Of a stretch of DNA of 64,000 nucleotides, positions 14,127 to 32,399 are shown piece by piece. Origin of the DNA: Pirellulales bacterium. Its GTDB lineage: Bacteria > Planctomycetota > Planctomycetia > Pirellulales > JAEUIK01. The position numbers and the translations under genes are program-made. Under the pieces are notes generated by a model. That model worked only from the letters and a program-made list of their open reading frames with translations, had not been told where the DNA came from and searched no databases. Position 1 is the stretch's first letter. Each line of letters starts with the position of its first letter. Location of the stretch: NCBI GenBank assembly GCA_019636335.1, contig JAHBXR010000006.1, forward strand, positions 203,451 through 267,450, given 5' to 3'.

Positions 14127-15815
14127 GTGACGCAGTTACTCTGCCGTCCGAATACCCTTGCGCTGCGCCAACAGCGCCGCTCCACGCGGCATGTCGCGCT
14201 CGCCGTAGGCGCTGCTGGGGCCTTCCTTCTTGCTTTGCTGGGCCCTCGCCCATCGGCGGTGCTCGCCGCGGAAGGCCTGACCCCTCAAAGCCCCGAAGTG
14301 AAGGCGGCCGTTGCCCGAGCAGTTCAATACCTCTCGGCGTTCAGCTCGAGTTCCGAGACCCTGGGGGGACGCTGCCTGCTCGCGCTGGCACTCATCAAAG
14401 CCAACCAGCCAGCCACTCATCCCCGCATCGATGAAGCGGTGCAGTTGGCCATCAAGGCCGGCGACAACGGCGATCCCGGTGTCGACACCGACAACTATCA
14501 GGCCGCGTTACCGATCATCTTGCTCGCGTCGGTCGATGCCCAGAAGTATCGTCCCGAGATCACCAAGCTGCTCGAAAAGCTGCTGAAGCAGCAGAAGCAA
14601 AACGGCTCGTGGGGCTACGACCATAGCCGTCAGGGGGATGTGCCGCGCACGCAATACGCCGTGCTGGCGTTGTGGGAAGCATCACACGCCGAGGCCGAGA
14701 TCCCCATCTCCGCCTGGGAGAACGTGACGAATTTCCTGCTGCGAGTTCAAGACCCGTCGGGAGGCTACGGCTATCAGGCCATGGATCCGAAAGGCGATGC
14801 ACTTGTCCCGCAACTGGACCTGACGGTGACGCGGACCGCGGCCGGCGTCGGCAGCCTGTACATCTGCCAGGATTATCTCCGCCTGGGCGCACAGGGAGGC
14901 GGCTCGAACATCTCGACGGCGTTGCGGCGCGTCCAAGAAGACAAGAAAAAGCCGCACGCCGGTCCACGCACGCAAAACGTCTCGGTAGCGCGACTGGACG
15001 ATACCGAACAACGGGGTGACGCCTGGTTCGAGCAGAACTACAGTGCCCAACCCGACTCCGAACCTCACGGTTACACCTGCTACTATCTGTACGCCCTGGA
15101 ACGATACCAATCGTTCCGCGAGTTGTACCGTAGCAGTAGCAGCGCTCGCTCGGCCAATTGGTATGACGAGGGAGCCCGCTACTTGCTGAGCTCGCAAGTC
15201 AAGGACGGCTCCTGGGCCGGCAAGTCGTCGCACCTGTCGACAATGCACGATACGGCGCTCGCCACGCTCTTCCTCGTCCGCTCGACTCAGCAGGCATTGA
15301 ATCGCATCGGGAGCGGCACGCTGGTGGGCGGTCGCGGCCTGCCGCAGACTACAACCGACGTGCAATTGAAGGGAGGCCGCGTGGCGGCGCGTGCCATGTC
15401 GGGTCCGGCCGAGCAATTGCTGACGCTGATGGGCGATCCGTCGAGTCCTGATCAATTGGCCGCCATCGAGGGCTTCCGCGAATTGCTCAACGAAGGCCAT
15501 GAGGAAGTCATCAACAAGCATGCCGAGCGTTTGCGTGCCATGGCCGGCGCCGAGGACCCCGAGGCGCGCATCGCCGCGGTCGAGGCCCTGGCGCGCACTA
15601 CGGAACTCGACAACGTGCCGACCTTGATCTACGCCCTGACCGATCCGGACGATCGCGTCGTCGTGAAGGCGGTCGATGGATTGCGGCGCATCAGTCGCAA
15701 GTTCAGCGGCTTCCGCGCCCAGGAAGGACTCTCGTCGGCCGAGCGTGGAGCGCTCGTCGCACGCTGGAAGGAGTGGTATCTCACGGTCCGACCCGACGCC
15801 AATTTCGAGGAGTAA
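14127..15815 (+). CDS. Secreted alpha/alpha-toroid (terpene-cyclase-like) protein with C-terminal HEAT-type repeats
   Basis: GTG 14127 with GAGG about 10 bp upstream begins VTQLLCRPNTLALRQQ and leads into a signal sequence (VALAVGAAGAFLLALLGP), giving 562 residues; the frame stays open to 14037. The mature part contains squalene/prenyltransferase-type repeats with the Q-x3-GSW signature: QKQNGSWGYD, QDPSGGYGYQ and QVKDGSWAG, so an alpha/alpha toroid is expected. No DXDD cyclase motif is visible, so it is likely a binding rather than catalytic toroid. The last ~110 residues (EARIAAVEALARTTE, DPDDRVVVKAVDGLRRI) look like HEAT/armadillo repeats. It is the first gene of the co-directional ExbB/ExbD block; the next gene starts 7 bp after its stop codon. 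Confidence 0.8.
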   Translation: MTQLLCRPNTLALRQQRRSTRHVALAVGAAGAFLLALLGPRPSAVLAAEGLTPQSPEVKAAVARAVQYLSAFSSSSETLGGRCLLALALIKANQPATHPRIDEAVQLAIKAGDNGDPGVDTDNYQAALPIILLASVDAQKYRPEITKLLEKLLKQQKQNGSWGYDHSRQGDVPRTQYAVLALWEASHAEAEIPISAWENVTNFLLRVQDPSGGYGYQAMDPKGDALVPQLDLTVTRTAAGVGSLYICQDYLRLGAQGGGSNISTALRRVQEDKKKPHAGPRTQNVSVARLDDTEQRGDAWFEQNYSAQPDSEPHGYTCYYLYALERYQSFRELYRSSSSARSANWYDEGARYLLSSQVKDGSWAGKSSHLSTMHDTALATLFLVRSTQQALNRIGSGTLVGGRGLPQTTTDVQLKGGRVAARAMSGPAEQLLTLMGDPSSPDQLAAIEGFRELLNEGHEEVINKHAERLRAMAGAEDPEARIAAVEALARTTELDNVPTLIYALTDPDDRVVVKAVDGLRRISRKFSGFRAQEGLSSAERGALVARWKEWYLTVRPDANFEE

Positions 15816-15821
15816 GCGTCG

Positions 15822-16742
15822 ATGTCTTCACCGTCCGTGCCCCATTCCAATCCCGCGACGCCGCGACGCCGGTCGGCGGCCGCGCGCACCTCCGCCCAAC
15901 TGAAGGTGAGCAGCTACGACACCGCGGCGGGGTGGATGATCTCGCTGCTGATGTTGATCGGCGCTGCCGTGGCGAGCCTGTTTCTCATCTGGCTGACGAG
16001 CCGCATCTTCGTCACGCAGGCTCCGATTCCGGTCTTGCTCGAAGAGATCGGCGGAGGCGCCGAGGACGGCGTTCTCGGCGAGAGCATGGAGATCGATGCC
16101 CCCGACGCCGAAGTCATCTCGCAGGAAAGCGAATTGACCGAGCCGCAAATCGAGCAGGCTCTCGACCAGATCACCGAGGTCGTGGCCACGCTGCAAGCCG
16201 ACCTGACGCCTCCGGCCGAGACCGACAACGTCGAGTCGGGGGGCGGGGGCAAGTCGCACGGCGATGGCCGCCAGGTGGGACGCGGATCGGGCAAGGGTGA
16301 ACCCGGCATCCCACGCGCCCAACGCTGGGAGATCTTCTTCCAGGATGGCGGCACGCTCGAATCGTACGCGCGGCAGCTCGACTTCTTCAAGATCGAGTTG
16401 GGAGTCGTCGGCGGCACGAACCAGGTGCAGTACGCCTTTCGTCTGGCGCAGCCCAAGCCCGAGACGCGCGTCGGTGCAGCGGCGGAAGAAAACCGCCTCT
16501 ATATGACCTGGCGCAAGGGCAGCCTGCAGCAGGCCGATCAAGAGCTGGTCGCCCGCGCGGGCTTGTCTTCCGCCGGACGGCTCGTCGTGCAATTCTTTCC
16601 TCCCGAGACGGAAAACGTACTGGCCAACGTCGAGCGCAATTTCCGGGGACTCGAGGCCACCAAGATCCGCAAGACACGCTTCGGCGTGCGCGAGGCCGGC
16701 GCCGGCTACGAGTTCTACGTGATCGATCAAACCGCCTTTTAG
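15822..16742 (+). CDS. Single-pass membrane protein of the ExbB/ExbD block (TonB-like position)
   Basis: 306 residues: a basic Ser/Ala-rich cytoplasmic N-terminus (1-36), one transmembrane helix at about 38-62 (WMISLLMLIGAAVASLFLIW), and an acidic periplasmic stretch with many Glu/Asp (75-130). A Gly/Ser-rich linker follows (SGGGGKSHGDGRQVGRG), then a C-terminal globular domain of about 140 residues (QRWEIFFQDGGTLESYARQL ... YEFYVIDQTAF). The plan (helix, long linker, small C-terminal domain) is that of TonB or TolA, and it is encoded just before ExbB, but I see no TonB C-terminal signature. It may be the energy-transducing partner of the ExbB/ExbD channel; this is inference. Spacing to the toroid gene is 7 bp. 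Confidence 0.72.
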   Translation: MSSPSVPHSNPATPRRRSAAARTSAQLKVSSYDTAAGWMISLLMLIGAAVASLFLIWLTSRIFVTQAPIPVLLEEIGGGAEDGVLGESMEIDAPDAEVISQESELTEPQIEQALDQITEVVATLQADLTPPAETDNVESGGGGKSHGDGRQVGRGSGKGEPGIPRAQRWEIFFQDGGTLESYARQLDFFKIELGVVGGTNQVQYAFRLAQPKPETRVGAAAEENRLYMTWRKGSLQQADQELVARAGLSSAGRLVVQFFPPETENVLANVERNFRGLEATKIRKTRFGVREAGAGYEFYVIDQTAF

Positions 16743-16814
16743 CGGGGCCTTGGACCAGCGCGGCCCACGATTCCATCCCACCATTTTCAAACCCACGAGA
16801 CTGAAACGCCGCCG

Positions 16815-17468
16815 ATGAATATCGATGCCCTGATGAAGATTCTCGAGTGGTTGGATTACGCGGCGCTCGCCGGCTGCGCCTTGTGGGGCGCGTTCTGCGT
16901 AGTCGTCGTCTGGCGGCGAATCCAACAACAGCGTTTTCGCAACGAGGACGCGCAAGCCGAATTCATGGATCAGATCGACGATTTTCTCATCGTGGGAGAC
17001 TTCGATTCCGCCATCGAACTGTGCGAAGAAGACGGGCGCGCCGTGCCCCAGCTGGTACACCTAGCGCTGACCAACCGCGACCTGGGCTACAACCAGGTGC
17101 GGCACTTCGTGGCCGATCGTTTTCAACGTGACATCCTTTCCGATCTCGAATACCGCTTGAGTTGGGTGCAGACCTGCATCAAGAGCGCGCCGATGCTGGG
17201 ACTCTTCGGCACTGTGCTCGGCATGGTGGGCGCGTTCGGCAAGCTGGCCGCGGGGGGCAACGTCGAGGCCACCAGCCTGGCGGGCGACATCAGCTTCGCG
17301 CTGTATACCACCGCCTACGGCCTGGCGATCGCCATTCCGCTGATCTTCGCCGTGGCCGCCATCAATATCCGTATTCGCAAACTCGAGGATCTCGTCGGAC
17401 TCGGGTTGAAACGGCTCTTCGATACGCTCAAGCCGTTGCTGACCCAGGCGCCGGTCGGAGGACGTTGA
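16815..17468 (+). CDS. MotA/TolQ/ExbB-type proton channel protein
   Basis: 217 residues with the usual three-helix arrangement: helix 1 at about 14-35 (YAALAGCALWGAFCVVVVW), then a cytoplasmic domain. The conserved pair of helices follows at about 123-145 (APMLGLFGTVLGMVGAFGKL) and 158-190 (GDISFALYTTAYGLAIAIPL). The GLFGTVLGMV and TTAYGLAIAIP blocks are the MotA/ExbB signature. With ExbD it would form the inner-membrane proton-driven motor. It starts 73 bp after the previous gene, and ExbD begins 2 bp after its stop. Confidence 0.93.
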   Translation: MNIDALMKILEWLDYAALAGCALWGAFCVVVVWRRIQQQRFRNEDAQAEFMDQIDDFLIVGDFDSAIELCEEDGRAVPQLVHLALTNRDLGYNQVRHFVADRFQRDILSDLEYRLSWVQTCIKSAPMLGLFGTVLGMVGAFGKLAAGGNVEATSLAGDISFALYTTAYGLAIAIPLIFAVAAINIRIRKLEDLVGLGLKRLFDTLKPLLTQAPVGGR

Positions 17469-17469
17469 A

Positions 17470-17964
17470 ATGGCCGCGACCGCCGTTGCCGAACCACCCT
17501 ATGTCGACGACGAAGACGATGCGGTGCTGCCTCCGCGCCGGCCCATGAAAGCCGACGACGAGATGGACATCACCCCGATGATCGACATGACGTTTCTGTT
17601 GCTGATTTACTTTCTGGTGGCCTCGTCGATCGATACGCAGGCCTCGGCCGACCTGCCGCCGGCGCATTACGGCAAGGCCGTGAGCCAGAACTCCGCCGTG
17701 ATCATCACGGTGGGTGATACGGGGGGCAGCCGAGCCGCGATCTACCTGGGAGACGGCAAGGCGGGTACGCCCCTGGCCGGTGAAAACGAGGCGCAAGAAA
17801 CTCAAATCCGTGAGTTGGTCGAGCAGGGCATGCGCGAAGGCAAAGGGACGGTCATCATCAAGGCGGAGCGCGGCGTGCCCCATCGCGAGGTGACCCGCGT
17901 GGCCTCCGCGGCCACCACCGTGGAGGGAATTCACCTCTACATCGGAGTGTTCGAGGCCGAGTGA
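17470..17964 (+). CDS. ExbD/TolR-type protein, first copy
   Basis: 164 residues. A short acidic N-terminus leads to MDITPMIDMTFLLLIYFLVA, the single ExbD helix carrying the proton-relay aspartate (PMID), followed by a periplasmic domain that ends VTRVASAATTVEGIHLYIGV. It pairs with the ExbB-type protein, whose gene ends 1 bp before. A second, longer ExbD follows 58 bp downstream, so the complex may hold two kinds of ExbD subunit or the two may be alternative partners. Confidence 0.93.
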   Translation: MAATAVAEPPYVDDEDDAVLPPRRPMKADDEMDITPMIDMTFLLLIYFLVASSIDTQASADLPPAHYGKAVSQNSAVIITVGDTGGSRAAIYLGDGKAGTPLAGENEAQETQIRELVEQGMREGKGTVIIKAERGVPHREVTRVASAATTVEGIHLYIGVFEAE

Positions 17965-18022
17965 CGAACGCGATGCGGGGCGGAGCTGCCGAAGAAAGCA
18001 ACGAACGACGACTGGCTGTGCC

Positions 18023-18658
18023 ATGACCATCCGCTTTCACTGTGCTCACTGCAACAAGCGACTGAAAGTCGACGACGGCCTCGCCGGGCGGCGCGGCAAG
18101 TGTCCGCGTTGTGGTCAGTCCATCGAGGTGCCGCAAGATTCCGAACCGCAGAAGTCCCAGACGGCGGCCCTCACCCCGGCCGAGATCCTGGCCGAGGATG
18201 AAGAGGGGGCGATGTTCGCCAAGCGCACCTTCGCGGGGGACGAAGAGATGGACATGACTCCCATGGTCGATATGACGTTTCTGTTGCTGATCTTCTTCAT
18301 CTGCACGTCGACCTTCAATCTGCAGAAGTCGATCGACATGCCGGTGCCCGACCCCACCGATACGGCGGCCCAGGCGCGCACGATCGAAGAGCTGGAAGAG
18401 GACAACGACTACATCGTCGTGCGAATCGAAGGAGATAACACGGTCTGGGTCGAGGATGCCGCCGCCTACAGCGAAATCGAGCTCCTCACGAAGCTCCGCG
18501 AATTGAAGGCCGGCAGCGGAGGTCGCCCCGGCGCCACCCGCCTGATGGTCATGGCCAGCGGCGACGCCGCCCACGAGACGGTGGTGCGCGTGTTGGATTC
18601 GGGCACGGCCGTGGGCATGGAGAGCATTCGCCTGTCGAGCATGGCGGACGACGAGTAG
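18023..18658 (+). CDS. ExbD/TolR-type protein, second copy, with N-terminal zinc ribbon
   Basis: 211 residues. Residues 7-30 form a CxxC-x16-CxxC zinc ribbon (C7, C10, C27, C30), the same module that begins the two DUF1559 proteins at 43920 and 44910. The ExbD helix follows at about 75-97 (MDMTPMVDMTFLLLIFFI, proton-relay Asp in PMVD), then a periplasmic domain of about 110 residues. The zinc ribbon would lie in the cytoplasm. A metal-binding or docking module on an ExbD is unusual outside planctomycetes as far as I know. Confidence 0.9.
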   Translation: MTIRFHCAHCNKRLKVDDGLAGRRGKCPRCGQSIEVPQDSEPQKSQTAALTPAEILAEDEEGAMFAKRTFAGDEEMDMTPMVDMTFLLLIFFICTSTFNLQKSIDMPVPDPTDTAAQARTIEELEEDNDYIVVRIEGDNTVWVEDAAAYSEIELLTKLRELKAGSGGRPGATRLMVMASGDAAHETVVRVLDSGTAVGMESIRLSSMADDE

Positions 18659-18742
18659 CCGGAACCGCGTACGGCCGACCTTCGGCCACCGAGAACGACC
18701 GCAAACCAGTGCAGGCGTCGCTTGCCTCGCGAGAAGAACGAC

Positions 18743-21700
18743 ATGTCCCAGTTGAAGATCGATGAATTCTTGAACGTGCTGCGGCGCAGCAGCCTGCTGC
18801 CGGCCGACCTCTTGGCCAAGGTCTCGCGCCGCGCCAACGAGTCGAAGACTCCCGTCGATCCGCGCAGCGTCGCCAAGTGGCTGGTCGAGAAGCAGTACAT
18901 TTCGCTCTGGCAGGCCCGGCAACTCCTGGCCGGGCGCGATCGGTTCTACCTGGGGCGTTACCGCTTGATCGACCGTATCGGCAAGGGGGGCATGGGCGTC
19001 GTCTTCAAAGCGCAGCACGACGTGATGGCGCGCACCGTGGCCCTGAAGGTGATGGCGCGGCACTTGCTCAAGAAACCGCGCGCCGTCGAACGCTTCAATC
19101 GCGAAGTCAAAACCGCGGCCGCGCTCCATCACCCCAATATCATCACCGCCTTCGACGCCGACCGCGTCGGCAATACGCACTTCCTGGTCATGGAGTATGT
19201 CGAGGGGAGCGACCTGAATGCCTGGCTGCGGGCCAGAGGCCCCCTGCCCATTGCCGCGGCGTGCGAGTGCGCCATGCAGGCGGCCGAAGGGCTGAGCCAC
19301 GCCTACGCCCAGAAGATGGTGCATCGCGACATCAAGCCGGTGAACATGCTGGTCACCTGGAACTCGGAAAAATCGCGGCCCGTCGTCAAGCTGCTCGACA
19401 TGGGGCTGGCGCGCTTCGTCAGCGAGACGCAAGAAGAAGGCGCGCTGACGCGGGTCGGTCAAACGATCGGCACGCCCGACTATATCGCCCCCGAGGCGGC
19501 CGAGAACTTCAAGCACGCCGATATCCGCGCCGACATCTTCAGCCTGGGCTGCGCCCTGTTTCGCCTGTTGACGGGCAAGCTCCCCTTCCCGGGCGAGAAT
19601 ACGATGGAAAAGCTGCTCGCGCGGGCGACGCGCGACGCGCCGGTCGCCAGCAGCTTGCGTCCCGAGATTTCGCCCGAGCTCGATCAGGTCATCGCCAGGA
19701 TGCTGGCGCGCGATCCCACCGCGCGCTATCAAACCCCGGACGAGGTCGTGCAGGCGCTGTCCCCCTTTGCCGCCTCGCGCGTGGGAAATCAGGGGGCGCT
19801 CGAATTCTTTCGCACGCCCATCACTGCGACGGAACGCGTCTCGGCCAGCGATCTGGAACCCGATGCCGACACGAGCCTGCAGGAGTTCTTTCGCGACTTT
19901 TCCCGCTCGCCGGTACGCGAGGAATCGCCGGCTCCGGACGACGCGCCTCCCGCCGAGCTCGAGCTTCAGCCCGAACCGGACGCTGCCGCCGAGCTCGAAT
20001 TGGCGCCGCTCGAAGAAGTTCCGCACACGGTTGCCCCCAAACCGGCATCCTCCGAAAAGAAAAAGCCTGCCTCGAAATCGCCACCTCCTTCGACAGGCAA
20101 GTCCGCGGCCGTGACACCGGATAAGCTGGCGACGGCCGACGAGGAGTTGGCGCCGATCGGCGATGAGCTCGAATTGATCAGCGACGAAGGCGCTCTCACG
20201 GCGGTTGTCATCGACGACGCCGATCCCTTTGTGAAGAAGGAACGCCCCACTTCACGCGCCCGCACGGCGAAGCTCAAGCCGGGCAAATCGGGCTGGGACT
20301 CGAACCTGATGATGGTGGGGGGCGGTGTACTGCTCGCGCTGTTCATCGCCTTGGGGGTGCTGGTCTGGTCGATCTTCCGTGAAACGGGGGACCAGGCGCT
20401 CGAGCTGGCCGAGAATGAATACCGCAGCGGCGCGTACACCCAGGCGGTCCATCGCTACGACCTCTACCTGGCGAACTATCCCAGCCATACCGGCGTGGGT
20501 CTGGCACGAGTCCATCGCGGACTGGCACAACTGCGCCAAGCCACAAGTGGCGGCGGCGACTGGAGCAAGGCGCTCGACACCGCCAAGCAGGTGCTGAGCG
20601 AGATCTCGCGCGAGCAGGAGTTCGGCGAAGCCTCGGGCGATCTTGCCTCGCTGCTGCCCGCGATCGCCGAGGGGCTCGCCCAGCAGGCCCGCGAGAAGCA
20701 AGATCCCGCCCGGGTCGAGCAATCGCGCGAGGCACTGGCCCTTGTGGCACGCTGGGTGCCCAAGGCCATGCAGTCGGAGCAACAACTGACCAACATCGAC
20801 CAGTTGCTGGCGCTCACCACGCGTGAAATCGATCGCGAAGCGGCCTTGAACAAGGCCGTGGCCGAGATGAACGACGCCGTGGGCGCCGGCGAGACCCGCC
20901 GTGCCTACGACGTTCGCAAGCAGTTGCTGAAAATCTATCCCGATCTCCAATCGAACGCGGCGCTCGTCGAGGCGGTGACGAAGATCGTCGAGGCTGAACA
21001 AGCAGCGGTCGCGTATACCGCCGCCGAACAGCCCGCCGAGACCGCTCCCGTGGAATCGCCGATCGTGGCCAGCGTCTCGCTGGCGCGGACGACGGGCGCC
21101 GCCGCGCCGGGCGTCGAGGGCCAGGTGGTCAGTGCGCTCGTCGATGGCGCCGCCTATGGGCTCGATGCCACGAATGGAACGCTGCTCTGGCGACAATTCG
21201 TTGGCTTCGAGACGCGCTACGTGCCAACTCCGTTGAATGCCGATGCCGGCAGCGATCTGCTGCTCGTCGACGGCGCGCGTCGGGAACTTTGCCGAGTCGA
21301 GTCGCACACCGGCAAGCCCCGCTGGCGGCATCCCCTGGGCGAGCCCCTCGTCGCCGATCCCGTGCTGCTGCGCGACCGGGTGCTCGTCAGTACGAAAAGC
21401 GGCAAGCTGATCGGCATCCAGCTCGACACGGGCTCCGCCGCCGGATCGACGCAGATTCCCGACGAGCTCGCCGTAGCGCCCGGCATCGATGCGCGACAGC
21501 GTTACGCGTACCTCCCCGGCGAACATTCGACCCTGTACGTCATCTCGCTTGCCGACGGCACTTGTGCCGGTGCTACGTATGTCGGGCACGAGCCAGGCAC
21601 GATTCGGGTCGCGCCGGTGCTCGCCAGCCGCTACGTCCTGCTCGTCGACAACCATCGTCTGAATTCGTCGGTGCTGCGTGTCTTCGTCGGCAACGAGCAC

Positions 21701-23152
21701 GGGCTTGAGCTCAAGCCCGTGCAAGAAGTTCCGCTCGAAGGGCACGTTGACGTCGCGCCACTCGTCCGCGAGCGGTGGTTATCGGTCATCACCGACCGAG
21801 GCGCGATCTACACGTTCGAGATCGGCACGCCCGATCAGCCGACTCCGCTCACCAACGTGGCCACGACTCCGCCGCAGGAGGGTGAGCCCCTCACACGCTA
21901 CTTCCTGGCGGCGGGCAATCAACTCTTCGTGGCCGACGATCGTTTCACGAAGTATGACGTCCAGGCGGCGAACGCCCGGCTCTCTCCTCGCTGGGTGAAC
22001 GATCAGCACGACAAGTTCCTGCAACCGCTTCGCGCCGCGGGCAACGTGCTCTTCCACGTCCGGCGCAAAGAAGGCTGGCCCGGCGCGCTCGTTTCGGCGG
22101 TGAGCTCGAGCGATGGCAAGCGGATCTGGGAAACCGCGCTGGCCGCGCCGTTGGCCGGCGGACCGCAAGTCGACACGGCTGCCGCCTCCGTCGGTGGCAT
22201 GACCACCACCGGTTCGATCTATAGTCTGCCGAGCGCCAGGCTCGCTGGGAACCTGGTCGCCAGCCAGCCGAATCAACACCTCGATCTCTCGATGCCGATC
22301 CCCGATGCGTCGCGGCTGGTCGCACTGGCCAACGACTGGACGGCCGTCGGCGCCGCTGACGAACAGCGGGTGATTGTTTTCCAAGGGGGCGGCGGAGATC
22401 GACGCCCCCGCTTCGTCAGCCTGCCCGATACCCTAGCCTGCCAGCCCGGCGGAATCGCGGGGGGCCTCCTCGCGCCGGGCAAAGGTGGTCAGGTGTCGTT
22501 CGTGCCGGCCGAACCCGGCGCCGTCGCGATCGAACCCTTTCAACCTGCACTCGCGGCAGGGGCGACGATCGGCTGGCTGCGTCCCACGGCCCTCAGCGAG
22601 ACTGAGGCCCTGCTCGCCGACGGCAGTACCAGGCTCTACCGCCTGACGGTCGAATCACAGCCGGCGGCGCATCTGGCGGCCGCCGCCACCGTCGAGTTCG
22701 AAACACCACTCGTCACTCCCGCGGCAGTCGCCGGATCGTTTGCCTACGCGGTGGATGCGAAAGGCCGGCTTCTAGCCTTCAAATTGCCCGATCTTGCGCC
22801 GGGCGAACCATGGAATTTGGGTGGCCGTGTCGCCTGGGGGCCGTACGGCGCGGGGGACCATGTAGTGCTCGTGACCGAGGATGCCCAGATGCACTGCTTC
22901 GACTCGTCGGGACAAAACGCCTGGAAGGCCCCCCTGCCCCACGGCAGCCTGACCGGAGAACCTGCCGCCGTAGGCGACAGTATCGTTCTGGCCACCGTGT
23001 CCGGCGTGGTCTACCGCGTCGCGGCGGACACCGGCGAATCCACTGGTCGCGTGGAGCTCGGTTGCCCCTTGGCGTCGGGCCCACTTTCGGTGGGTACAAA
23101 TCTCGTCGTCGCCGGTCACGATGGAACGTTGTACGTCGTGCCGCAGCCGTAG
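18743..23152 (+). CDS. Ser/Thr protein kinase with transmembrane helix and PQQ-type beta-propeller
   Basis: ATG 18743 (MSQLKIDEFLNVL) gives 1,469 residues; a TTG 21 bp earlier is possible. The N-terminal ~70 residues are a planctomycete pre-kinase module ending WQARQLLAGRDRFYLGRY. The Hanks-type kinase domain (about 72-340) has GKGGMG, Lys in VALKVMARH, HRDIKPVN near 193, DMG in place of DFG (LLDMGLARF), and GTPDYIAPE. A disordered acidic/Pro region follows, then one membrane helix at about 522-545 (MMVGGGVLLALFIALGVLVW) and a TPR-like stretch. Many PQQ-type blades (DGAAYGLDATNGTLLWRQF, HTGKPRWRHPLG, SSDGKRIWETAL) should lie outside the cytoplasm. It is embedded in the ExbB/ExbD block and may sense envelope state and phosphorylate the motor complex; the target is inference. 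Confidence 0.92.
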   Translation: MSQLKIDEFLNVLRRSSLLPADLLAKVSRRANESKTPVDPRSVAKWLVEKQYISLWQARQLLAGRDRFYLGRYRLIDRIGKGGMGVVFKAQHDVMARTVALKVMARHLLKKPRAVERFNREVKTAAALHHPNIITAFDADRVGNTHFLVMEYVEGSDLNAWLRARGPLPIAAACECAMQAAEGLSHAYAQKMVHRDIKPVNMLVTWNSEKSRPVVKLLDMGLARFVSETQEEGALTRVGQTIGTPDYIAPEAAENFKHADIRADIFSLGCALFRLLTGKLPFPGENTMEKLLARATRDAPVASSLRPEISPELDQVIARMLARDPTARYQTPDEVVQALSPFAASRVGNQGALEFFRTPITATERVSASDLEPDADTSLQEFFRDFSRSPVREESPAPDDAPPAELELQPEPDAAAELELAPLEEVPHTVAPKPASSEKKKPASKSPPPSTGKSAAVTPDKLATADEELAPIGDELELISDEGALTAVVIDDADPFVKKERPTSRARTAKLKPGKSGWDSNLMMVGGGVLLALFIALGVLVWSIFRETGDQALELAENEYRSGAYTQAVHRYDLYLANYPSHTGVGLARVHRGLAQLRQATSGGGDWSKALDTAKQVLSEISREQEFGEASGDLASLLPAIAEGLAQQAREKQDPARVEQSREALALVARWVPKAMQSEQQLTNIDQLLALTTREIDREAALNKAVAEMNDAVGAGETRRAYDVRKQLLKIYPDLQSNAALVEAVTKIVEAEQAAVAYTAAEQPAETAPVESPIVASVSLARTTGAAAPGVEGQVVSALVDGAAYGLDATNGTLLWRQFVGFETRYVPTPLNADAGSDLLLVDGARRELCRVESHTGKPRWRHPLGEPLVADPVLLRDRVLVSTKSGKLIGIQLDTGSAAGSTQIPDELAVAPGIDARQRYAYLPGEHSTLYVISLADGTCAGATYVGHEPGTIRVAPVLASRYVLLVDNHRLNSSVLRVFVGNEHGLELKPVQEVPLEGHVDVAPLVRERWLSVITDRGAIYTFEIGTPDQPTPLTNVATTPPQEGEPLTRYFLAAGNQLFVADDRFTKYDVQAANARLSPRWVNDQHDKFLQPLRAAGNVLFHVRRKEGWPGALVSAVSSSDGKRIWETALAAPLAGGPQVDTAAASVGGMTTTGSIYSLPSARLAGNLVASQPNQHLDLSMPIPDASRLVALANDWTAVGAADEQRVIVFQGGGGDRRPRFVSLPDTLACQPGGIAGGLLAPGKGGQVSFVPAEPGAVAIEPFQPALAAGATIGWLRPTALSETEALLADGSTRLYRLTVESQPAAHLAAAATVEFETPLVTPAAVAGSFAYAVDAKGRLLAFKLPDLAPGEPWNLGGRVAWGPYGAGDHVVLVTEDAQMHCFDSSGQNAWKAPLPHGSLTGEPAAVGDSIVLATVSGVVYRVAADTGESTGRVELGCPLASGPLSVGTNLVVAGHDGTLYVVPQP

Positions 23153-23205
23153 CGCTCGTGAATGGGATCGTCCGCTCGTCACTTTCTGCCAGTCGCCGTT
23201 CCTCG

Positions 23206-25779
23206 ATGCTCAACCCACGCCAGACCTCGATCCGACCGTACCGCCGCCGGCGAACGCCGTGGCGCGCGGTCGTAGTGCTGCTTGCGCTGGCGGCGATCGT
23301 GGCGCAAGGAGCCTGGACGGCGCTCGCGCAGGAACCGGCGGCAGAGACTCCCAACGCCGAGCAGCCTGCCCCCCCCGACAACGCGACCCCGCCACCCGTC
23401 GACGCGCCGGCAGGGCCTGCGATTCCCACCTCGCCCTCGGCCCCCACGGCCCCTTTCTACGAACAGGATCCCTTCGATCGCATCCTGCTCAAGGATGGCA
23501 ATGACCTGAAGGTGCTACCGCTCGAGTTCGTCGGACGGCGGCGTCCCGAGAACCCGCGCGGCTCGGACATCATCATCGTGCGGTTTCCGGATAAGCCGGC
23601 CGAAAAGTTCGAGCTCCGCTGGCGCGACGTGCAAAGCATCACCTTCTGGGAAGAAATGGTGATGTCCGAGGCAGACAAACTCGTCGCGGCGGGCAAGTTC
23701 GACGCCGCCTACGACTATTACGCCTACCTCGACAACACGCACGCCGGCTTCGACGGCGTGAAGCAGGCCATCGAACGCTATCTGTTCGAAGAGGCCAAAA
23801 CGTGGCAACGTCAGGCGCAGTACGATCGCGTGCTGGCGCTCTTGCTCGAGCTGTACGATCGCAATCCTCAATCCCCCGGTCTGCCGCGCGCGCTGGGCAT
23901 TACGACGGGCAAGTTGATCGAGAAGCAGCTCTCGCAGGATGAATTCCCCGCGGCCCGCCGCCTGCTCTCCGGACTCTCGGCCAAGTATCCCGACGAGGCA
24001 TCGGTCCTGCAGTGGCGAGGGTTCTTCGAGCAACGTTCGCGATCGGCCGTCGACGAGGCGCAATCACAACTGGCGGCCGGTCGCATCCGCCAGGCGCATG
24101 CCGCGGCCCGGCGCGCCATGACGATCTGGCCTGACCTGGCCGCGGCGCGGACGCTGTTCACCGATCTGAATCGCCGCTTCCCCTACGTGGCAGTGGGGGT
24201 CGCGCAGCCGGCTCCCCCCGACCCCAGCCAGGTCCACGTGCTCGACGATTGGGCCGCGCGGCGCAGTCGGCGATTGCTGCATCGCGGGCTGTTCGAGCTG
24301 GCCGGCTATGGCGTCGAGGGGGGCGAGTATCGCTCCCCGCTCGGAGAGATGCAGAGCGTCGATCTGGGTGTCGGCATGAACTTTCGCTTGCGCCATGACA
24401 TCACCTGGTCTCCCGGCGGCGCGGTGCTCGGCGGCGCTGATCTCGCGCGGCAACTCCTGGCCCTGTCCGATCCGAAAAGCCCCATCTATCGCTCCGATTG
24501 GGCCGAGCTGTTCGCCAGCGTCGAGGTTCCCACGGTGTTCGAGACGAACGTGCGTCTGCGGCGCACCACTCTCCGGCCCGAAGCGATGCTGCAAGGCCCC
24601 GTGATCGATTGGGACGCGGTGCGTGAAGGTCGCCAGCCGGTGCCAACCGATGGACCCTATCGCATCGAGTCGAACGCAGGGGACGCCATTCAATACACGC
24701 TCAACGAAAACTACTTCGATCGTGGTCCTGCACAGCCCCACCTGGTCGACGAACGGCACATCGCCGATGCCGACGCGGCGATCAAGGCACTGCGTTTGGG
24801 CGATATCCTGCTGCTCGATCGTGTGAATCCCTGGCAGCTTGGCAAAGTACATGCCATTCCCAACGTGACCGTCGCGTCCTATGGCGTACCGACGGTCCAC
24901 TGCCTGATTCCCAATCTTGCGAGACCGCTGCCGGCCAATCGACAGTTCCGCCGCGCGTTGGTGTATGGAATCAATCGATCATTGATTCTGAGCCGCGATC
25001 TGCTCGACAAGCGCCACGACGCGCGCAGCCGGGTGATTAGCGGGCCATTTCCGCTCGGTTATGCCTACAACGACCAGGTACACGTTCGGCCCTTCGATCC
25101 CAATCTGGCACGCGTGCTGTCGCGCGTGGCCCTGTCGGAACTCGCCAAGAAGAACAACGACGAGCAAGCCGATGCAGCGCCCCCCTCGACGCCCGATGCC
25201 AAAACGGCCTCGGCTCCCGCGGTGCCCCTCACGCAGGAAGAGCAAGAGGCCGCCATCAAGAGTACGAAGCTCATCATCGCCCTGCCGGCCGAAGACATCG
25301 CCCGCCGCGCCTGCGAGCAGATCGCGCGACAGCTTGAAGCGGTCTTGGGGCTGCAAGTCGATCTGGTCGAGCTCGATCCGCTGCAACCACCCGACCAGCA
25401 CCCCCCCCACGACCTGCGCTACGCCGAACTGGCCCTCTGGGAACCGATCGTCGATGCGCGCCAACTGCTCGGTTCGGGCGGATTGGCCGGGGCCTCGAAT
25501 CTGTATCTCGATCAGGCCCTGCGACAATTGGCTCACGCCAGCGATTGGCGCACGGCGCGCGACAAGCTCTTCGAGATCCATCGCCTGGCGGCCGAGGACG
25601 TCACCGTCGTGCCCCTCTGGCAACTGACCGACTACTTCGCCTATCACCAGGACCTGGAAGGTATCGGCGAAGCCCCCGTCTCGCTCTACCAGGAGATCGA
25701 ACGCTGGCAGATCGCCCCGCTGCCGGTGGGGGTGGCCCAGACCGACGCGCGCGCAGCGTCGGAGCAGGGGCAGCCATGA
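23206..25779 (+). CDS. Secreted TPR plus solute-binding-type (SBP family 5) protein
   Basis: ATG 23206 begins MLNPRQTSIRPYRRRRTPWR and a signal peptide (AVVVLLALAAIVAQGAWTAL), giving 857 residues. Residues ~85-150 form a beta domain (DLKVLPLEFVGRRRP ... VQSITFWEEMVM), and 150-340 are TPR-like helices. From ~350 to the end it resembles the peptide/nickel-binding family SBP_bac_5: the GLFE block, FRLRHDITWSPGGAVLGGAD, DGPYRIESNAGDAIQYTLNE, and RQFRRALVYGINRSLIL (the usual 'VRQAINYAIDR' position). No ABC permease or ATPase is encoded nearby. The product may deliver ligand to the ExbB/ExbD machine or act as a receptor. Its stop overlaps the next ATG (ATGA). Confidence 0.8.
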   Translation: MLNPRQTSIRPYRRRRTPWRAVVVLLALAAIVAQGAWTALAQEPAAETPNAEQPAPPDNATPPPVDAPAGPAIPTSPSAPTAPFYEQDPFDRILLKDGNDLKVLPLEFVGRRRPENPRGSDIIIVRFPDKPAEKFELRWRDVQSITFWEEMVMSEADKLVAAGKFDAAYDYYAYLDNTHAGFDGVKQAIERYLFEEAKTWQRQAQYDRVLALLLELYDRNPQSPGLPRALGITTGKLIEKQLSQDEFPAARRLLSGLSAKYPDEASVLQWRGFFEQRSRSAVDEAQSQLAAGRIRQAHAAARRAMTIWPDLAAARTLFTDLNRRFPYVAVGVAQPAPPDPSQVHVLDDWAARRSRRLLHRGLFELAGYGVEGGEYRSPLGEMQSVDLGVGMNFRLRHDITWSPGGAVLGGADLARQLLALSDPKSPIYRSDWAELFASVEVPTVFETNVRLRRTTLRPEAMLQGPVIDWDAVREGRQPVPTDGPYRIESNAGDAIQYTLNENYFDRGPAQPHLVDERHIADADAAIKALRLGDILLLDRVNPWQLGKVHAIPNVTVASYGVPTVHCLIPNLARPLPANRQFRRALVYGINRSLILSRDLLDKRHDARSRVISGPFPLGYAYNDQVHVRPFDPNLARVLSRVALSELAKKNNDEQADAAPPSTPDAKTASAPAVPLTQEEQEAAIKSTKLIIALPAEDIARRACEQIARQLEAVLGLQVDLVELDPLQPPDQHPPHDLRYAELALWEPIVDARQLLGSGGLAGASNLYLDQALRQLAHASDWRTARDKLFEIHRLAAEDVTVVPLWQLTDYFAYHQDLEGIGEAPVSLYQEIERWQIAPLPVGVAQTDARAASEQGQP

Positions 25780-27440
25780 GACGACGCCTGAGGGATCGAA
25801 TCATCCGCCATGTACTTGTCACCGTGACCGCGGCCTGGCTAGCACTCGGCGCGATCCCGGCGGTGGCGCAATCGCTGTGGGATATGACCCCCTACCGCCT
25901 GCAACTGATCGTGGCCACGGCCGACGACGGGCGATTGCCCGCCGATTACGCGCCGCGGTTGAGCAGCCAGGTGGTCGATCGACTCGACTCTTTGGTCGGC
26001 GCCGCCTGGCAGATCGAATCGATCGCGCCCGACGCCCACCTGCGCCAGTTGCTGCTGGACGATCTCGCGCAGGTCACGGCCGAAGACCTCCCTCCATCGG
26101 CCCTCGAAACGGACAAGGTTCTGCTGGTGTCCGTCGGGGCGAGTTCTCGCGGCACGAAGATCCGTTCGCGCGAGTACGACGTGCGGACACAGACATGGGG
26201 CGCCACGGTCGAGCGTCAGGATGCCCAAACCCGGCCGTTGACGAACGAGGTCGTGCGCGCGGTCTTCGACAGCTTCACGCCGCTGGCGCTCGTGGACAAA
26301 GTCGAGAACAAGGTAGCCACGCTCAAGCTGCGCGCGGCGGGCCTGCCGCCGCGCGATCCCGGCCTGAGCTTCGTCTCTGCGGGCGATATCTTTCGACCCA
26401 TCATGCGTCTGAACGAACGAGACGGATCGGTCAAGAAGCTGCAAGGGGTGCCCTACACCTACGTGATGATCGACGAAGTGGGGGACACCGACGCGAAAGG
26501 CGCCGTTCACAGTGGCATCCGCGGGGCGTTGGCCGCAAGAAAACGTGGGCGCACGGAGCAGTTGGCGCTGAAGATCAAGTCCCCCTCTGGCGTCACGCGA
26601 CTGGAGCTGTGCTCGCGTACCGAACCCGACCGCCCGCTGGTCGGCTACGAGGTATTCGCCTACGGCCCGAACGATAAGACGACAGTTTCCCTCGGGCGCA
26701 GCGACAGCCAGGGGGTGGTCGAGGTGCCCCCAGGTCCGCAGCCGATCCGCATTCTGGTGGTGAAGAGCGGCGGCGAGTTTCTCGCGCGGCTGCCGATCGT
26801 GCCTGGTCTGGAGGCGAGGGTGCAGGCCCCCATGCAGCGTGACGACGAACGCGTATCGGCCGAAGGCTTCATCGTCGGCCTGCAGGAAGAACTGGTCGAC
26901 CTGGTCGTCCGTCGCGAGGTGCTCATGGCGTTGATCCGCGCCCGCCTCGACGAGGGGAAGCTTGCCGAGGCTGAAAAGTTGAACAACGAGCTGGGCGCGC
27001 TGCGCACGCGCGAGCAATTCGCCCTGCTGATCGATGCGCAAAAGCAGCGTACCGTTTCGAAGGATCCGCTCCTGCAACGGAAAATCGATCGCCTGTTCAC
27101 CGATACGCTGCAGTTGGTGAACAACTTCATGGCCAGCGCGCCGCTCGACGAACTGCAGCACGAGCTGCGCGAAGCGCGCCAGGCCGCGGCCCCCGCCGCG
27201 CCGGCCGCAGCTCCCGCCGCCGCGCCCTCCACTCCTGCTCCGGCTCCGGCCACTCCTGCTCCGGCTGCCTCGCCCGCAGCACCTGCCGCCGCACCCGCGA
27301 CGGCGCCGGCTGGTGGAGACGCACCGGCAGACAAGCCAGCGGGCGGGAAATCGCTGCGCGACGTCTTTCAAGAGATGCAGGAAGAGGACCAGCAGCCCGC
27401 CGAAAACGGACCGGCCGGTACCCCGCCCGCGGGTTCCTAG
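25776..27440 (+). CDS. Secreted protein with Ala/Pro-rich C-terminal region, last gene of the ExbB/ExbD block
   Basis: ATG 25776 overlaps the previous stop, giving 554 residues with a signal peptide (VLVTVTAAWLALGAIPAVAQ, cleavage near residue 32). The N-terminal domain (SLWDMTPYRLQLIVATADDG ... RLSSQVVDRLDSLVGAAW) looks like a conserved planctomycete domain of unknown function. A beta domain of about 100 residues follows (VGYEVFAYGPNDKTTVSLGR, a carboxypeptidase-regulatory-like fold by eye). A helical stretch comes next (EGKLAEAEKLNNELGALRTR), then an Ala/Pro low-complexity segment of about 60 residues at roughly 470-525. It ends with a short acidic tail. The function is unknown; coupling to the solute-binding-type protein suggests they act together. 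Confidence 0.78.
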   Translation: MRRRLRDRIIRHVLVTVTAAWLALGAIPAVAQSLWDMTPYRLQLIVATADDGRLPADYAPRLSSQVVDRLDSLVGAAWQIESIAPDAHLRQLLLDDLAQVTAEDLPPSALETDKVLLVSVGASSRGTKIRSREYDVRTQTWGATVERQDAQTRPLTNEVVRAVFDSFTPLALVDKVENKVATLKLRAAGLPPRDPGLSFVSAGDIFRPIMRLNERDGSVKKLQGVPYTYVMIDEVGDTDAKGAVHSGIRGALAARKRGRTEQLALKIKSPSGVTRLELCSRTEPDRPLVGYEVFAYGPNDKTTVSLGRSDSQGVVEVPPGPQPIRILVVKSGGEFLARLPIVPGLEARVQAPMQRDDERVSAEGFIVGLQEELVDLVVRREVLMALIRARLDEGKLAEAEKLNNELGALRTREQFALLIDAQKQRTVSKDPLLQRKIDRLFTDTLQLVNNFMASAPLDELQHELREARQAAAPAAPAAAPAAAPSTPAPAPATPAPAASPAAPAAAPATAPAGGDAPADKPAGGKSLRDVFQEMQEEDQQPAENGPAGTPPAGS

Positions 27441-27488: not shown

Positions 27489-28853
27489 TCAATAGCCCGC
27501 CACGATGGCAGCCAGGCAGACGGCCGCCACGACGGCGGCGATGGCAATCAAAATCGACACACTGCGCGGGATGCCCTGCCGTTCGAAATGATCAAGCGTC
27601 GAGCGAATGCGGGACATCGATCGTTGCGTCTCTTCGGTCGCTGCCGCCATGGGAAACGTGCCTTGCGACGTCTGACTGATGGAGTCATCGTCTCCTAACT
27701 CGTGCGGCAGGAACGTGGCGATGACGAACGACGGTTGCGTGTCTCCTTGGTCCGGCGTGTAGTTCGCGGGGGATTGGCCGATGGGGGGTGGAGTGGGAAT
27801 CTCTCGCCCGCGCGCGGCCGAAGGAACCGCGATCGGCACGCCGCCATCGTGCCAGGGCGTCAGACGTTCGACGACCTCGGCCGTGGTGGCGATGCGCTGC
27901 GCGGGGTCCTTGGCCATCATCATCAGGATGATGTCGGCGAATTCCTCGTCCACGTCGGGATTGAGCAACTGAGGCTTGAGCGGCACGTGGCGCACGTGGG
28001 CGCGAGCCTTGTCGCGCGTCGATCCTCCGGCGAACGGCACCTTGCCCGTCACCGCGTAATAGAGGGTGCAGCCCAAGGAATAGATATCGCTGGCGGGCGT
28101 GAGCTTGACGTTTCCCAAGACCTGTTCGGGACAGAGGTAGTCTGCCGTTCCGACGATCTTGCCGGTCTGCGGATCGTCGACGTCTCCCTCGAAGTAGCCG
28201 ACGAGCCCCAGATCGGAGATTTTCGCCCGTCCGTCGGGGGTCACGAGCACGTTGCCCGGCTTCACGTCGCGGTGGAGGAGCCCCTTTTCGTGGGCGTGTC
28301 CCAGACCGCGCGCCACCTGCGTGATGATCGAGGCGGCCATGGCGGGCGAGAGCCGCCCCGCGCGGCGAATCAAGCGGCGCAAGTCGGTGCCGGGCACGTA
28401 CTCGGTCACCAGGTAGTGAACGTTGCCATCGTGACCGGCGTCGAGCGCTCGCACGAGATTCTCATGGTCGAGCTGCGCCTGGGCGCGGATTTCTCGTTGA
28501 AAGCTGGCGACCGCCTCGGGAGTCGACTTATGGCGTGGCAGCACTTTGACCGCCACCATGCGTCCCATCACGAGGTGCTCGGCGCGGAAGACCTGCCCCA
28601 TGCCCCCCTGCCCGATCGAATCGAGAATCAGATAGGGGCCGAGATGAAACCGCGGGCGGCCGGCGAGCATCTGCTGGGCCTGCCAGCGATTGACCACGCC
28701 TTGCTCGACGAGCTGATGAGCCAGATCGTCCGCGGTGGGCTCTATCTTGCCCGCGGCGCGCAACGCCTGCTCGGCGGCCTCGACCGCTTCGCGCGTGACC
28801 AGGCCACTGGCCAGGACGATCGTGCGATATTCGCTGATGCCGAGTTGAGCCAT
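27489..28853 (-). CDS. Membrane-anchored Ser/Thr protein kinase
   Basis: 454 residues. The N-terminal module (about 1-72, ending VNRWQAQQMLAGRPRFHLGP) is related to that of the kinase at 18743. The kinase domain at about 73-335 has GQGGMG, Lys in VAVKVLPRH, HRDVKPGN near 198, SDLG as the DFG equivalent, and GTADYLCPEQV. A polar linker leads to a single C-terminal helix (SVSILIAIAAVVAAVCLAAI) with only a few residues after it, so it is tail-anchored and lacks a sensor domain. It faces the end of the ExbB/ExbD block convergently with 48 bp between stops. Its targets are unknown. Confidence 0.93.
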   Translation of the reverse strand: MAQLGISEYRTIVLASGLVTREAVEAAEQALRAAGKIEPTADDLAHQLVEQGVVNRWQAQQMLAGRPRFHLGPYLILDSIGQGGMGQVFRAEHLVMGRMVAVKVLPRHKSTPEAVASFQREIRAQAQLDHENLVRALDAGHDGNVHYLVTEYVPGTDLRRLIRRAGRLSPAMAASIITQVARGLGHAHEKGLLHRDVKPGNVLVTPDGRAKISDLGLVGYFEGDVDDPQTGKIVGTADYLCPEQVLGNVKLTPASDIYSLGCTLYYAVTGKVPFAGGSTRDKARAHVRHVPLKPQLLNPDVDEEFADIILMMMAKDPAQRIATTAEVVERLTPWHDGGVPIAVPSAARGREIPTPPPIGQSPANYTPDQGDTQPSFVIATFLPHELGDDDSISQTSQGTFPMAAATEETQRSMSRIRSTLDHFERQGIPRSVSILIAIAAVVAAVCLAAIVAGY

Positions 28854-30118: not shown

Positions 30119-31588
30119 TCAGTCGTCGTCTTCGGGCAGGTGAATGCCGACGTAAGTTCTTGGACGACGACCACTTGCTCTCGGGCATATGGTGGACAGA
30201 CGCGGCAGCGCGGCCTTCAATTTTCGGCCGAATGTCTGCACATTTTCGCAGTTTTGACGGCCATTCGCCGCGCACCATGCGCACCAGGCAGCAAACAAAT
30301 CTCTCGCTGTCACGCGCCCCTCGCCATGGACCTCGCAGCGTTCCTTGATGAAGGCGCGAATGGGACTGGCGAGATCGTCCAGGTCATTGATCAGGTCGTA
30401 GCCGTTGTCGGGCTGAACGAAGTAGCCGCGTTCGCTCAGCCGCCGCCAGCCGTCGATGGCCCACATGAGGATGCCAGGGAGCTCGTCGAACAGCTTGGCG
30501 CTGAGCGCCCGATCCTCCTGCTGGTAGAAAGACCGTTCCATCCGCAGCAGCAGCATCCGGCGCGCGAGGGACCCGCTGTTGTCTCTGAGGCGCGGCAGCT
30601 CGTTCGCCAGGATCATCAGCCGGGTGGGCAGCTTGGCCGTGATCGGTTCCAGGTTCTTGCGGTCGATGGAAAGAGTGTCCTCGCCGCTGATACTCATGAG
30701 GCGCTGGCTCACCAGGGGGCCATCGGCGCGGGGGCTCAGGCGGGCGTCGCTGATGATGGCTAACGACTTACCGAGCAGCGGCCCCAGGCCGAATTTGGTT
30801 TCGAGGCTGGCGAGGGTCGGGCAGGCGACGTTCGCCGCTCCGATCAGGGCGCGAGCGACACGCGCGATGGTCCCCTTGCCCGAGCGATCGGGACCAATCG
30901 CGACCAGGATCGTTTGGTGGGACGTGTCGGGGGTGAGCAGATAGCCAAACCAGTCCTGGAGGAGCGTACTTTGCTCTTGGGAACCGGGCCAAAGGGAAGT
31001 GAGAAAGCGGAGCCACTCGACCGGGCGTGGGGCGTTTTCGTCGAAGTCGTAATCGAGCGCCGCCGCGCCGAAAAATCGGGGCGTGGGCTGGATGCTGTAC
31101 TCGCGCTGCGCCAGAAAGCTCGGCAGATGCACGAGCAGGTTCCGCGCGGCCATGATCTCGCCGGGCGGCCACTGGGGCGGGTGTGGTGGCTCGGCGTCCT
31201 CGCGCCAGCTCGGCTGATCGACCCAGCCGGGGACCAGGGCCAGCGCCTGGAGACAATCGAGCACGTTCGTCGTGACGCGGGAGTTGAGATGGTGGCAGCG
31301 CGGCGCGAGCCAGCGGACGAGGTCGGCGCGAATCTCGCTGGGCGGGATTTCGCGATACGCGCCGGCGCGCCAACCGTGCCACGAGTCTCGCCAGAAGGCG
31401 AGGCGGGGCACGCCATCGAGGCGGCTGGCAGCGAGGTAGGCCGCGGCCTCGGTCGAGGGGTCGAGCGCCCGGGCGTCCGCGCGAATGTCCGCACCGTCGA
31501 GCGACTGAGGGGCCTCGGGGGTGTCGAGTGGCCCGAGGAGCGCGGAGGCTTCGTGGCGTGGGGTCGCTGGTTCCGTGGTGATGCTCAC
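30119..31588 (-). CDS. D5/P4-type primase-helicase, orphan
   Basis: Superfamily 3 helicase of the phage/plasmid D5-type primase family. GTG 31588 with GAAGGG upstream begins VSITTEPATPRHEA and gives 489 residues; the frame extends to 31801 without family sequence. An N-terminal linker domain (WRAGAYREIPPSEIRADLVR) is followed by Walker A GPDRSGKGT near residue 230, the Walker B equivalent in LAIISDARLS and a sensor block PTRLMILANELPRLRDNSG. The C-terminal region is winged-helix-like (AFIKERCEVHGEGRVTARDL). No separate prim-pol domain, integrase, capsid or replication-origin gene is nearby, so it looks like a remnant or satellite of a mobile element. It sits at the edge of a repeat-rich accessory patch. 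Confidence 0.85.
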   Translation of the reverse strand: MSITTEPATPRHEASALLGPLDTPEAPQSLDGADIRADARALDPSTEAAAYLAASRLDGVPRLAFWRDSWHGWRAGAYREIPPSEIRADLVRWLAPRCHHLNSRVTTNVLDCLQALALVPGWVDQPSWREDAEPPHPPQWPPGEIMAARNLLVHLPSFLAQREYSIQPTPRFFGAAALDYDFDENAPRPVEWLRFLTSLWPGSQEQSTLLQDWFGYLLTPDTSHQTILVAIGPDRSGKGTIARVARALIGAANVACPTLASLETKFGLGPLLGKSLAIISDARLSPRADGPLVSQRLMSISGEDTLSIDRKNLEPITAKLPTRLMILANELPRLRDNSGSLARRMLLLRMERSFYQQEDRALSAKLFDELPGILMWAIDGWRRLSERGYFVQPDNGYDLINDLDDLASPIRAFIKERCEVHGEGRVTARDLFAAWCAWCAANGRQNCENVQTFGRKLKAALPRLSTICPRASGRRPRTYVGIHLPEDDD

Positions 31589-32399
31589 GCGGTTGCCCTT
31601 CGCAGCTTGCGCATTGAGTGAGCGAGCGCGTCGAGAATTCTTTTTTATTTGCACCGTGGAGCGTGCTCGATCGTGGCGGTGTGCGTGACGGTGGAGACCG
31701 ATCGAGACTATACAGGCTTGGGTGGCTGATTTCGCCCTCAGTTTTCGGCCGCGGAGAATTAGGGATTGTTGATGGCTGCGCGGCATGTGGGCCCGCTGCA
31801 TTCGTCCTGGTACGACGGGAGGGCTTCGCGACCAACCTGCGGTTGGTGTGCGTCGCCCTCGCTCGCGCTTTTTGAAGTTGCGCTTTTCGTGGAATCGTAA
31901 GCGCGAAGCGTCAGCGAGGAACGCTTTGATCGACGCTTTTCCCAGGAATTTCCTCGCTTACGCTTCGGGTTAAGAGGGGAGTGCCGGACACCAAAACCCT
32001 GCTGCTTTGCGGAGAAAACAGACAAAGGAACCTCAAAAGCGCAACTTCAAAACTGGCACTTCGGGTTGTGATTAGTCGGCGAAGGCTCCTTGGCTGCGCG
32101 GCGGGGAATAAGACGGCGATCCGCAGCTTTGTGTCGTGGGATCGAAGGCAGGTTGAATGAAGCGCGCCTAGACGGCGCTACCGTCGGAATGACGCAGTAC
32201 GGTGAGGCCGCGCCAAATCCGGAGCTACTCGGGGCAACTGGACACCGTTAGAACCTATTCTGTCTGGGGTCCGGTGTTACGAAGCCACGGTGCGGCGTCA
32301 TGTTGACGGTCTGTTCAGATCAATTTGGCCGCACGCGTAGACAGCGGTACAATACAATCGGGCACTAGAGCTTGACTTGAACGGCTGCAGAGGCAAGAC
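31589..32399. other. 811-bp non-coding accessory stretch
   Basis: No open frame here has a family match or a convincing start. The minus-strand extension of the primase frame reaches 31801 but lacks conserved sequence. It contains nested inverted repeats (31870-32052) and probably promoters for the primase (leftward) and for the small acidic protein (rightward). Confidence 0.5.
31870..32052. repeat. Nested inverted repeats
   Basis: The outer pair is an exact 18-bp inverted repeat, TTTTGAAGTTGCGCTTTT at 31870-31887 and its complement at 32035-32052. Inside is a second, imperfect pair: GCGAAGCGTCAGCGAGGAA (about 31904-31922) against TTCCTCGCTTACGCTTCGGG (about 31949-31968). The whole could fold as a long branched hairpin or be a miniature mobile element; no direct target repeat was identified. 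Confidence 0.75.

Follow-up and report, generated by a model that had tools for sequence, protein, structure and literature searches.

A conserved eight-gene planctomycete block that may encode a proton-driven trans-envelope machine

On the plus strand of the window, by which is meant the whole 64,000-nucleotide stretch of DNA that was analysed, positions 14127-27440 carry a block of eight co-directional open reading frames (ORFs) that, with a probability of about 0.55, encodes a trans-envelope machine, likely proton-driven, whose ExbB/ExbD1/ExbD2 motor would drive an arm protein with one membrane pass, named X here, against a periplasmic assembly predicted to comprise a secreted protein named 'last', a membrane-anchored propeller protein and a protein with a solute-binding protein (SBP) domain. 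It is best read as a machine of the Tol/Ton/Agl kind, Tol-like in character, with new parts (its own arm, propeller and receptor) and a tie to cytoplasmic phospho-signalling. All eight ORFs were found on the + strand where the original prediction, an earlier reading of the same DNA, had placed them, in the order 'heat', X, exbB, exbD1, exbD2, propeller gene, SBP gene and 'last', with intergenic gaps of 6, 72, 1, 58, 84, 53 and -4 bases. The names of relatives suggest that the window belongs to the Pirellulales, and literature searches turned up no published description of this eight-part set.

The block was followed through neighbourhoods of up to 20 kb and 11 named loci, in which the eight families were mapped by profiles. 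The order-level sample comprised 57 genomes, the window's own included; an SBP-gene relative was present in 36 of them, referred to below as block genomes, and 21 were without it. The type I listing held 55 planctomycete loci, 54 with the SBP gene. At all 54 of these, the propeller gene lay within 1.5 kb of the SBP gene on the same strand (at L084 by a partial match only), and 'last' directly followed the SBP gene in 52/52 loci whose contigs extend far enough to show it, the other two contigs being too short. Where both genes of a pair were found, adjacency was complete for exbB-exbD1 (39/39), exbD1-exbD2 (39/39), exbD2-propeller (40/40) and X-exbB (35/35), and 'heat' stood immediately upstream of X in 27 of the 28 loci in which it was found. 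At nine loci no motor genes separate X from the propeller gene, which comes immediately after it. The block reaches across Pirellulales families and extends to family f21, which belongs to another order, and to a remote set termed type II. In the SBP tree the four remote type II loci, the Pirellulales rows and a group of 18 rows (f21 plus five named loci) are separate. Identity to the window ranged from 20 to 55% for X, in the alignment of relatives, and from 22 to 41% for the SBP-type protein. Had the order been confined to this locus, or had the SBP and kinase genes mostly been found away from the motor, a chance neighbourhood of eight genes would have been the reading; the sole point for it is that the motor is missing in some genomes. 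An order that persists over two orders at these identities argues against it, as do flanking genes that are not kept: when 13 ORFs around the block were compared with 71 loci, the downstream kinase alone recurred, four others matched one or two loci each and eight matched none. Chance is therefore considered a vanishingly improbable explanation. The SBP and propeller genes hold to the block; what parts from it is the kinase domain, missing in 30 of 39 orthologues, and the motor, which was not seen there in 9 of the 36 block genomes.

Across the class, a match to X was obtained in 263 of 297 genomes (242 of 272 good ones), a count to which families f112 and f115 contribute weak and remote matches. 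Twenty further X loci picked from the class list included 17 with the propeller gene in one run with X, 13 with the SBP gene and 'last' and 10 with the motor trio. The window's own genome holds a second X (locus L089; contig C21: 86000-105900), 55% identical to the first and divergent to a second exbB-exbD1-exbD2 set; the propeller, SBP and 'last' genes were not found in that stretch.

Domain calls on the block proteins, made with Pfam and NCBIfam, bear out the motor trio of the original prediction. The ExbB/TolQ-type subunit (16815-17468, + strand) matches MotA_ExbB (3.1e-23), and both ExbD1 (17470-17964, +) and ExbD2 (18023-18658, +) match ExbD by Pfam (3e-16 and 2.1e-21, respectively). The membrane Asp pattern is present in both ExbD proteins of the window and, by a simple pattern, in 47 of 53 ExbD1 relatives. 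The two ExbD proteins differ in their CxxC pairs, which occur in 45/53 ExbD2 vs 0/53 ExbD1; ExbD2 of the window has two, in an N-terminal zinc-ribbon-like CxxC..CxxC segment (18038-18124) that scored 18.2 bits as an MJ0042-type finger, below the cut-off of 20.9. Non-flagellar relatives of such motors include Exb, Tol, Agl, the phage-defence pair ZorAB and others without known function, according to the available text of PMC12505986. In Rhodopirellula baltica an exbB and an exbD, which may or may not correspond to the block genes, are induced by salt (PMC2754498, in part).

The eighth protein, 'last' (25776-27440, +), had been described simply as secreted. It is secreted, with no convincing family by Pfam or NCBIfam; the structure model (predicted local distance difference test, pLDDT, 87.6) shows an alpha/beta domain of TolB/FlgT-like appearance (25884-26285), a small beta-barrel (26280-26579), a CnaB/Ig-like domain (26583-26840) and then a helical bundle. 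A Foldseek search with this model returned FlgT (3w1e, 2.4e-8), the LPHT ring (8z5n, 2.8e-8) and TolB (7mx5, 1.5e-7), and 'last' is accordingly predicted to start with a TolB-N/FlgT-like domain. The likeness is one of fold alone; no FlgT sequence-family match was obtained at E values up to 1 with either Pfam or NCBIfam, and Pfam presumably includes the FlgT families. TolB_N was likewise found in 0 of the 57 genomes; the earlier statement that there is no TolB is therefore true by sequence family and not by the predicted fold of one part of 'last'. FlgT and TolB, the nearest folds to 'last', both act alongside other ion-driven motors: TolB is contacted by TolA at its N-terminus (available part of PMC7391070), and FlgT builds the H ring, a hypothesised part of the stator (available part of PMC6504787). 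The resemblance to the Vibrio flagellar H/T ring lies in the predicted fold of the first domains of 'last' and in the position of FlgT beside an ion-driven stator, whereas the block is without flagellar genes and 'last' without a FlgT sequence match.

The arm protein X (15822-16742, +) had been called TonB-like and load-bearing. Its arm-like architecture stands in the model, which has a mean pLDDT of 77.8 and predicts one transmembrane (TM) helix (residues 31-62; 15912-16007), followed by a disordered linker and, C-terminally, a folded domain (16314-16736) with pLDDT of about 90 and above; the SHLS histidine and TonB_C did not appear. X has no Pfam match up to E 1 and no vWA, TolA-family or TonB_C sequence match with Pfam or NCBIfam, and two fold searches gave no clear match, for vWA or for the TolA-type C-terminal domain alike. 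Among relatives of type I, S-x3-H was seen by a simple pattern in three rows only, all outside the helix core, while the four type II X proteins all have S...H in the TM helix and inspection by eye showed a TM histidine in 11 of the 15 remote X-like proteins (L132-L146).

With these parts, the machine would work as follows. Proton flow would turn ExbD1 and ExbD2 within the ExbB ring, and X would dock on the motor via its TM helix and then span the periplasm, carrying force to its C-terminal domain, which would contact 'last' and/or the TPR-SBP and propeller proteins. The work would in this way take place at the outer membrane or the cell wall. The SBP-type subunit may gate or sense the work of the arm, and the membrane-anchored propeller protein may relay its state to or from the cytoplasm, through the kinase in the window's family, through FHA in the other sampled order and two motor-less loci, or perhaps through a neighbouring kinase. 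In addition to Tol, Ton and Agl, a large part of a bacterial class would thereby have a proton-driven trans-envelope system of its own, in which the arm is new and the receptor derives from ABC importers.

How far the motor belongs to the block bears on the choice between this reading and one in which X, the propeller protein, the SBP-type protein and 'last' make up a scaffold in the periplasm, either passive or concerned with signalling, with the motor loosely tied and serving X in some lineages. The motor genes lie inside the block in 25 of the 36 block genomes. Among these 25, the block halves of G015 and G053 are on two contigs because contig ends cut the propeller gene, and the contigs of G003 and G035 start within motor genes; a further block copy in G015 (L075) is motor-less. 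Outside the 25, G033 carries the type II set, and in G032 a close ExbB lies on a different contig while a close ExbD2 was not found. Several observations weigh against a driven machine. The trio is elsewhere in the genome in 4 of 36 (G040, G048, G024 and G006), no close ExbB or ExbD2 was found in 5 of 36 (G005, G025, G037, G038 and G052, the G037 contig being cut), and none of the seven loci from family f111 has motor genes next to X, though X there retains the TM pattern described below; these cases count against an always-needed motor. At 15 remote X loci (f112/f115) the block does not adjoin X, the SBP gene and a strong propeller or 'last' match were not found beside it, and the motor genes present in three lie on the opposite strand. 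X of the window is without the SHLS docking histidine (S-x3-H in the TM helix), the Ser/His pattern by which TolA and TonB dock on their motors (as given in part of PMC12204202). The likeness of 'last' to FlgT and TolB spans one or two domains, where identity is about 10%, and the root-mean-square deviation across the FlgT-like stretch is 9 to 11. In favour of the machine, a [YF][DE]xxxS-like start of the TM helix, a pattern defined only after the data were seen, is shared by 44 of 44 type I X proteins beside motor genes (L055 by eye), is present in 5 of 5 at L050, L051, L052, L054 and L061, and is lost in 4 of 4 at the motor-less loci L074, L075, L078 and L084; against this, the four losses cluster closely in the SBP tree and so represent few independent events, and G005, which is without a close ExbB, still has the pattern. 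The absence of the motor from the block in 9 of 36 Pirellulales genomes and from beside X in f111, vs the invariant propeller-SBP adjacency, favours the scaffold. Set against it are the 35 loci of two orders in which X and the propeller gene flank the motor, the motor's adjoining X in the type II set as well, and the retention of the TM pattern by X where the motor is elsewhere in the genome. A scaffold of this kind is thus judged rather unlikely, and the driven machine is preferred. At L078 (8651-9505), which is motor-less, the N-terminal hydrophobic stretch of X ends in Gly-Cys, a possible lipoprotein signal, for which a simple pattern test was negative.

The nearest known system is Tol-Pal (TolQ/TolR/TolA/TolB/Pal/CpoB), with which the block shares a TolQ/TolR-type motor, a single-pass arm, a propeller, TPR-like parts and, by predicted fold, a TolB-N-like domain, here in 'last'. 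It differs in having two ExbD proteins, a PQQ-type membrane-anchored propeller and an SBP domain, and in the absence of TolB_N and Pal; the X tail has no TolA-family match, and no Pal (OmpA domain) match was obtained among scanned ORFs in and around the block. That the block replaces Tol-Pal, holding and constricting the outer membrane while the cell buds, would accord (X standing for TolA, the propeller protein and 'last' together for TolB, and OmpA-type proteins encoded elsewhere for Pal) with the TolB-like domain of 'last', with the lack of TolB_N in all 57 genomes and with OmpA-type domains somewhere in 55 of the 57 genomes, though MotB-like proteins may be among the latter. The 21 relatives without the SBP-type gene are likewise without TolB_N, and the whole block is therefore not needed for division in each; the SBP domain, moreover, has no counterpart in Tol-Pal. 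This substitution is considered unlikely. As for Ton, TonB_C was found in 23 and TonB receptor barrels in 32 of the 57 genomes, neither being found in 13 of the 36 block genomes; in the window's own genome TonB and receptor genes lie side by side on contig C4.

The combination of one ExbB with two different ExbD proteins recalls the Myxococcus Agl-Glt machinery, in which AglR/AglQ/AglS are so composed and GltG joins FHA to TonB_C (available part of PMC3169522). A surface-motility or adhesion motor of this kind would also fit the FHA head on the membrane partner in some relatives, Pfam having found FHA in 7 of 39 propeller proteins. It leaves the SBP domain without explanation, neither SBP nor a PQQ propeller is mentioned in the portion of PMC3169522 available, and the comparison covers the motor composition and the FHA head; a motility or adhesion motor appears quite improbable. 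Sets built around vWA force transducers, reported in the Planctomycetes-Verrucomicrobia-Chlamydiae (PVC) group including Planctomycetes, likewise combine a tolQ-like gene, two heterologous tolR-like genes, a TPR gene and a new arm (PMC12204202, in part). Their arm tail has a vWA fold, many with SHLS, whereas X of the window has neither by sequence.

The protein that sets the block apart from these systems is encoded at 23206-25779 (+) and is secreted, with a TPR-like part (weak match, E 0.25 by Pfam/NCBIfam) and a family 5 SBP domain (24382-25380; SBP_bac_5 6.7e-20, above cut-off). Its profile matches DppA, NikA and HbpA chains, and by sequence the domain is a true family-5 relative, in which ligand binding is putative. 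In this domain the protein resembles the Opp/Dpp/Nik ABC importers; it differs from them in its fusion to a TPR-like part, the motor alongside and the absence of an adjoining permease or ATPase, no match to either being present among scanned ORFs in or around the block, as originally predicted. Among the 57 genomes, 16 gave no OppC_N match; 14 of the 16 are block genomes, and completeness is at least 90% in 10 of the 14. In 14 of the 36 block genomes the SBP-type protein is therefore without a recognisable Opp/Dpp importer of the usual type to serve. This finding, and the adjacency of the SBP and propeller genes in all 54 loci, speak against an orphan SBP that feeds an Opp/Dpp importer encoded elsewhere beside an unrelated motor, a possibility favoured by the true family-5 nature of the domain and by three OppC_N matches in the window's own genome; it is held to be highly improbable. 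OppC_N was present in 19/21 block-less vs 22/36 block genomes.

The kinase-propeller protein (18743-23152, +; Pfam Pkinase and PQQ_2) has a cytoplasmic Ser/Thr kinase head (18959-19735), a TM helix (20309-20383), a TPR-like part and a PQQ/BamB-type propeller from 21143. The kinase had been taken as part of the set; the propeller proved to be so (PQQ_2 by Pfam in 39/39 relatives) and the kinase domain did not (Pkinase 9/39, FHA 7/39). A kinase motif search of 56 loci, the window excluded, gave six positives, all in the window's family, to which Pfam adds the window itself and the type II loci L087 and L088. FHA heads were found by Pfam at L041, L043, L045, L046, L048, L074, L075, L097, L101, L103 and L105, and a local FHA profile built from seven Pfam-positive loci matched 20 of the 59 propeller ORFs, of which 18 belong to the f21-type clade and two to the motor-less L074 and L075. 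The fused kinase is thus a lineage-specific cytoplasmic head, replaced by FHA in some relatives, and not a core part. A stand-alone Ser/Thr kinase (27489-28853, - strand; Pkinase 2.6e-55), convergent to the block and likely accessory, has counterparts directly downstream of 'last' in 12 of the 30 Pirellulales loci whose contigs leave space for one. The Pkinase, FHA and convergent-kinase counts together indicate that phospho-signalling is a recurring partner of the block and the fused kinase is not. The FHA-headed propeller proteins of L074 and L075 are placed among kin without FHA, and the propeller gene of G006 (L061:9968-13348) stops early and is broken or misassembled in appearance.

As to function, macromolecule uptake in planctomycetes is sensitive to CCCP (carbonyl cyanide m-chlorophenylhydrazone), and crateriform complexes join both membranes; the energy-coupling component of either is not named in the available part of the source (PMC5394234). 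The block is one candidate set for such coupling. It might, on this guess, be the energised core of a membrane-bridging apparatus, ligand-gated and proton-driven, that works or opens the outer-membrane crateriform complexes and powers protonophore-sensitive macromolecule uptake into the periplasm, with a cytoplasmic phospho-signalling read-out; so specific a role is speculative and, as it stands, unlikely.

The first gene of the block, 'heat' (14127-15815, +), encodes a secreted alpha/alpha-toroid and HEAT-repeat protein (HEAT_2 3.3e-7), the toroid matches (SQHop/Prenyltrans) being weak and below family cut-offs with Pfam and NCBIfam. In two of the four type II loci (L087:18151-19722 and L088:256-1239), a gene for a cytochrome c-like protein with five CxxCH motifs lies near 'last'. 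Elsewhere in the window, positions 34681-36795 hold a 704-amino acid ORF with no Pfam match at E 0.001, and positions 30119-31801 hold a DUF5906/D5-like primase-helicase gene, perhaps of mobile-element origin, beside a DHDPS-family gene.

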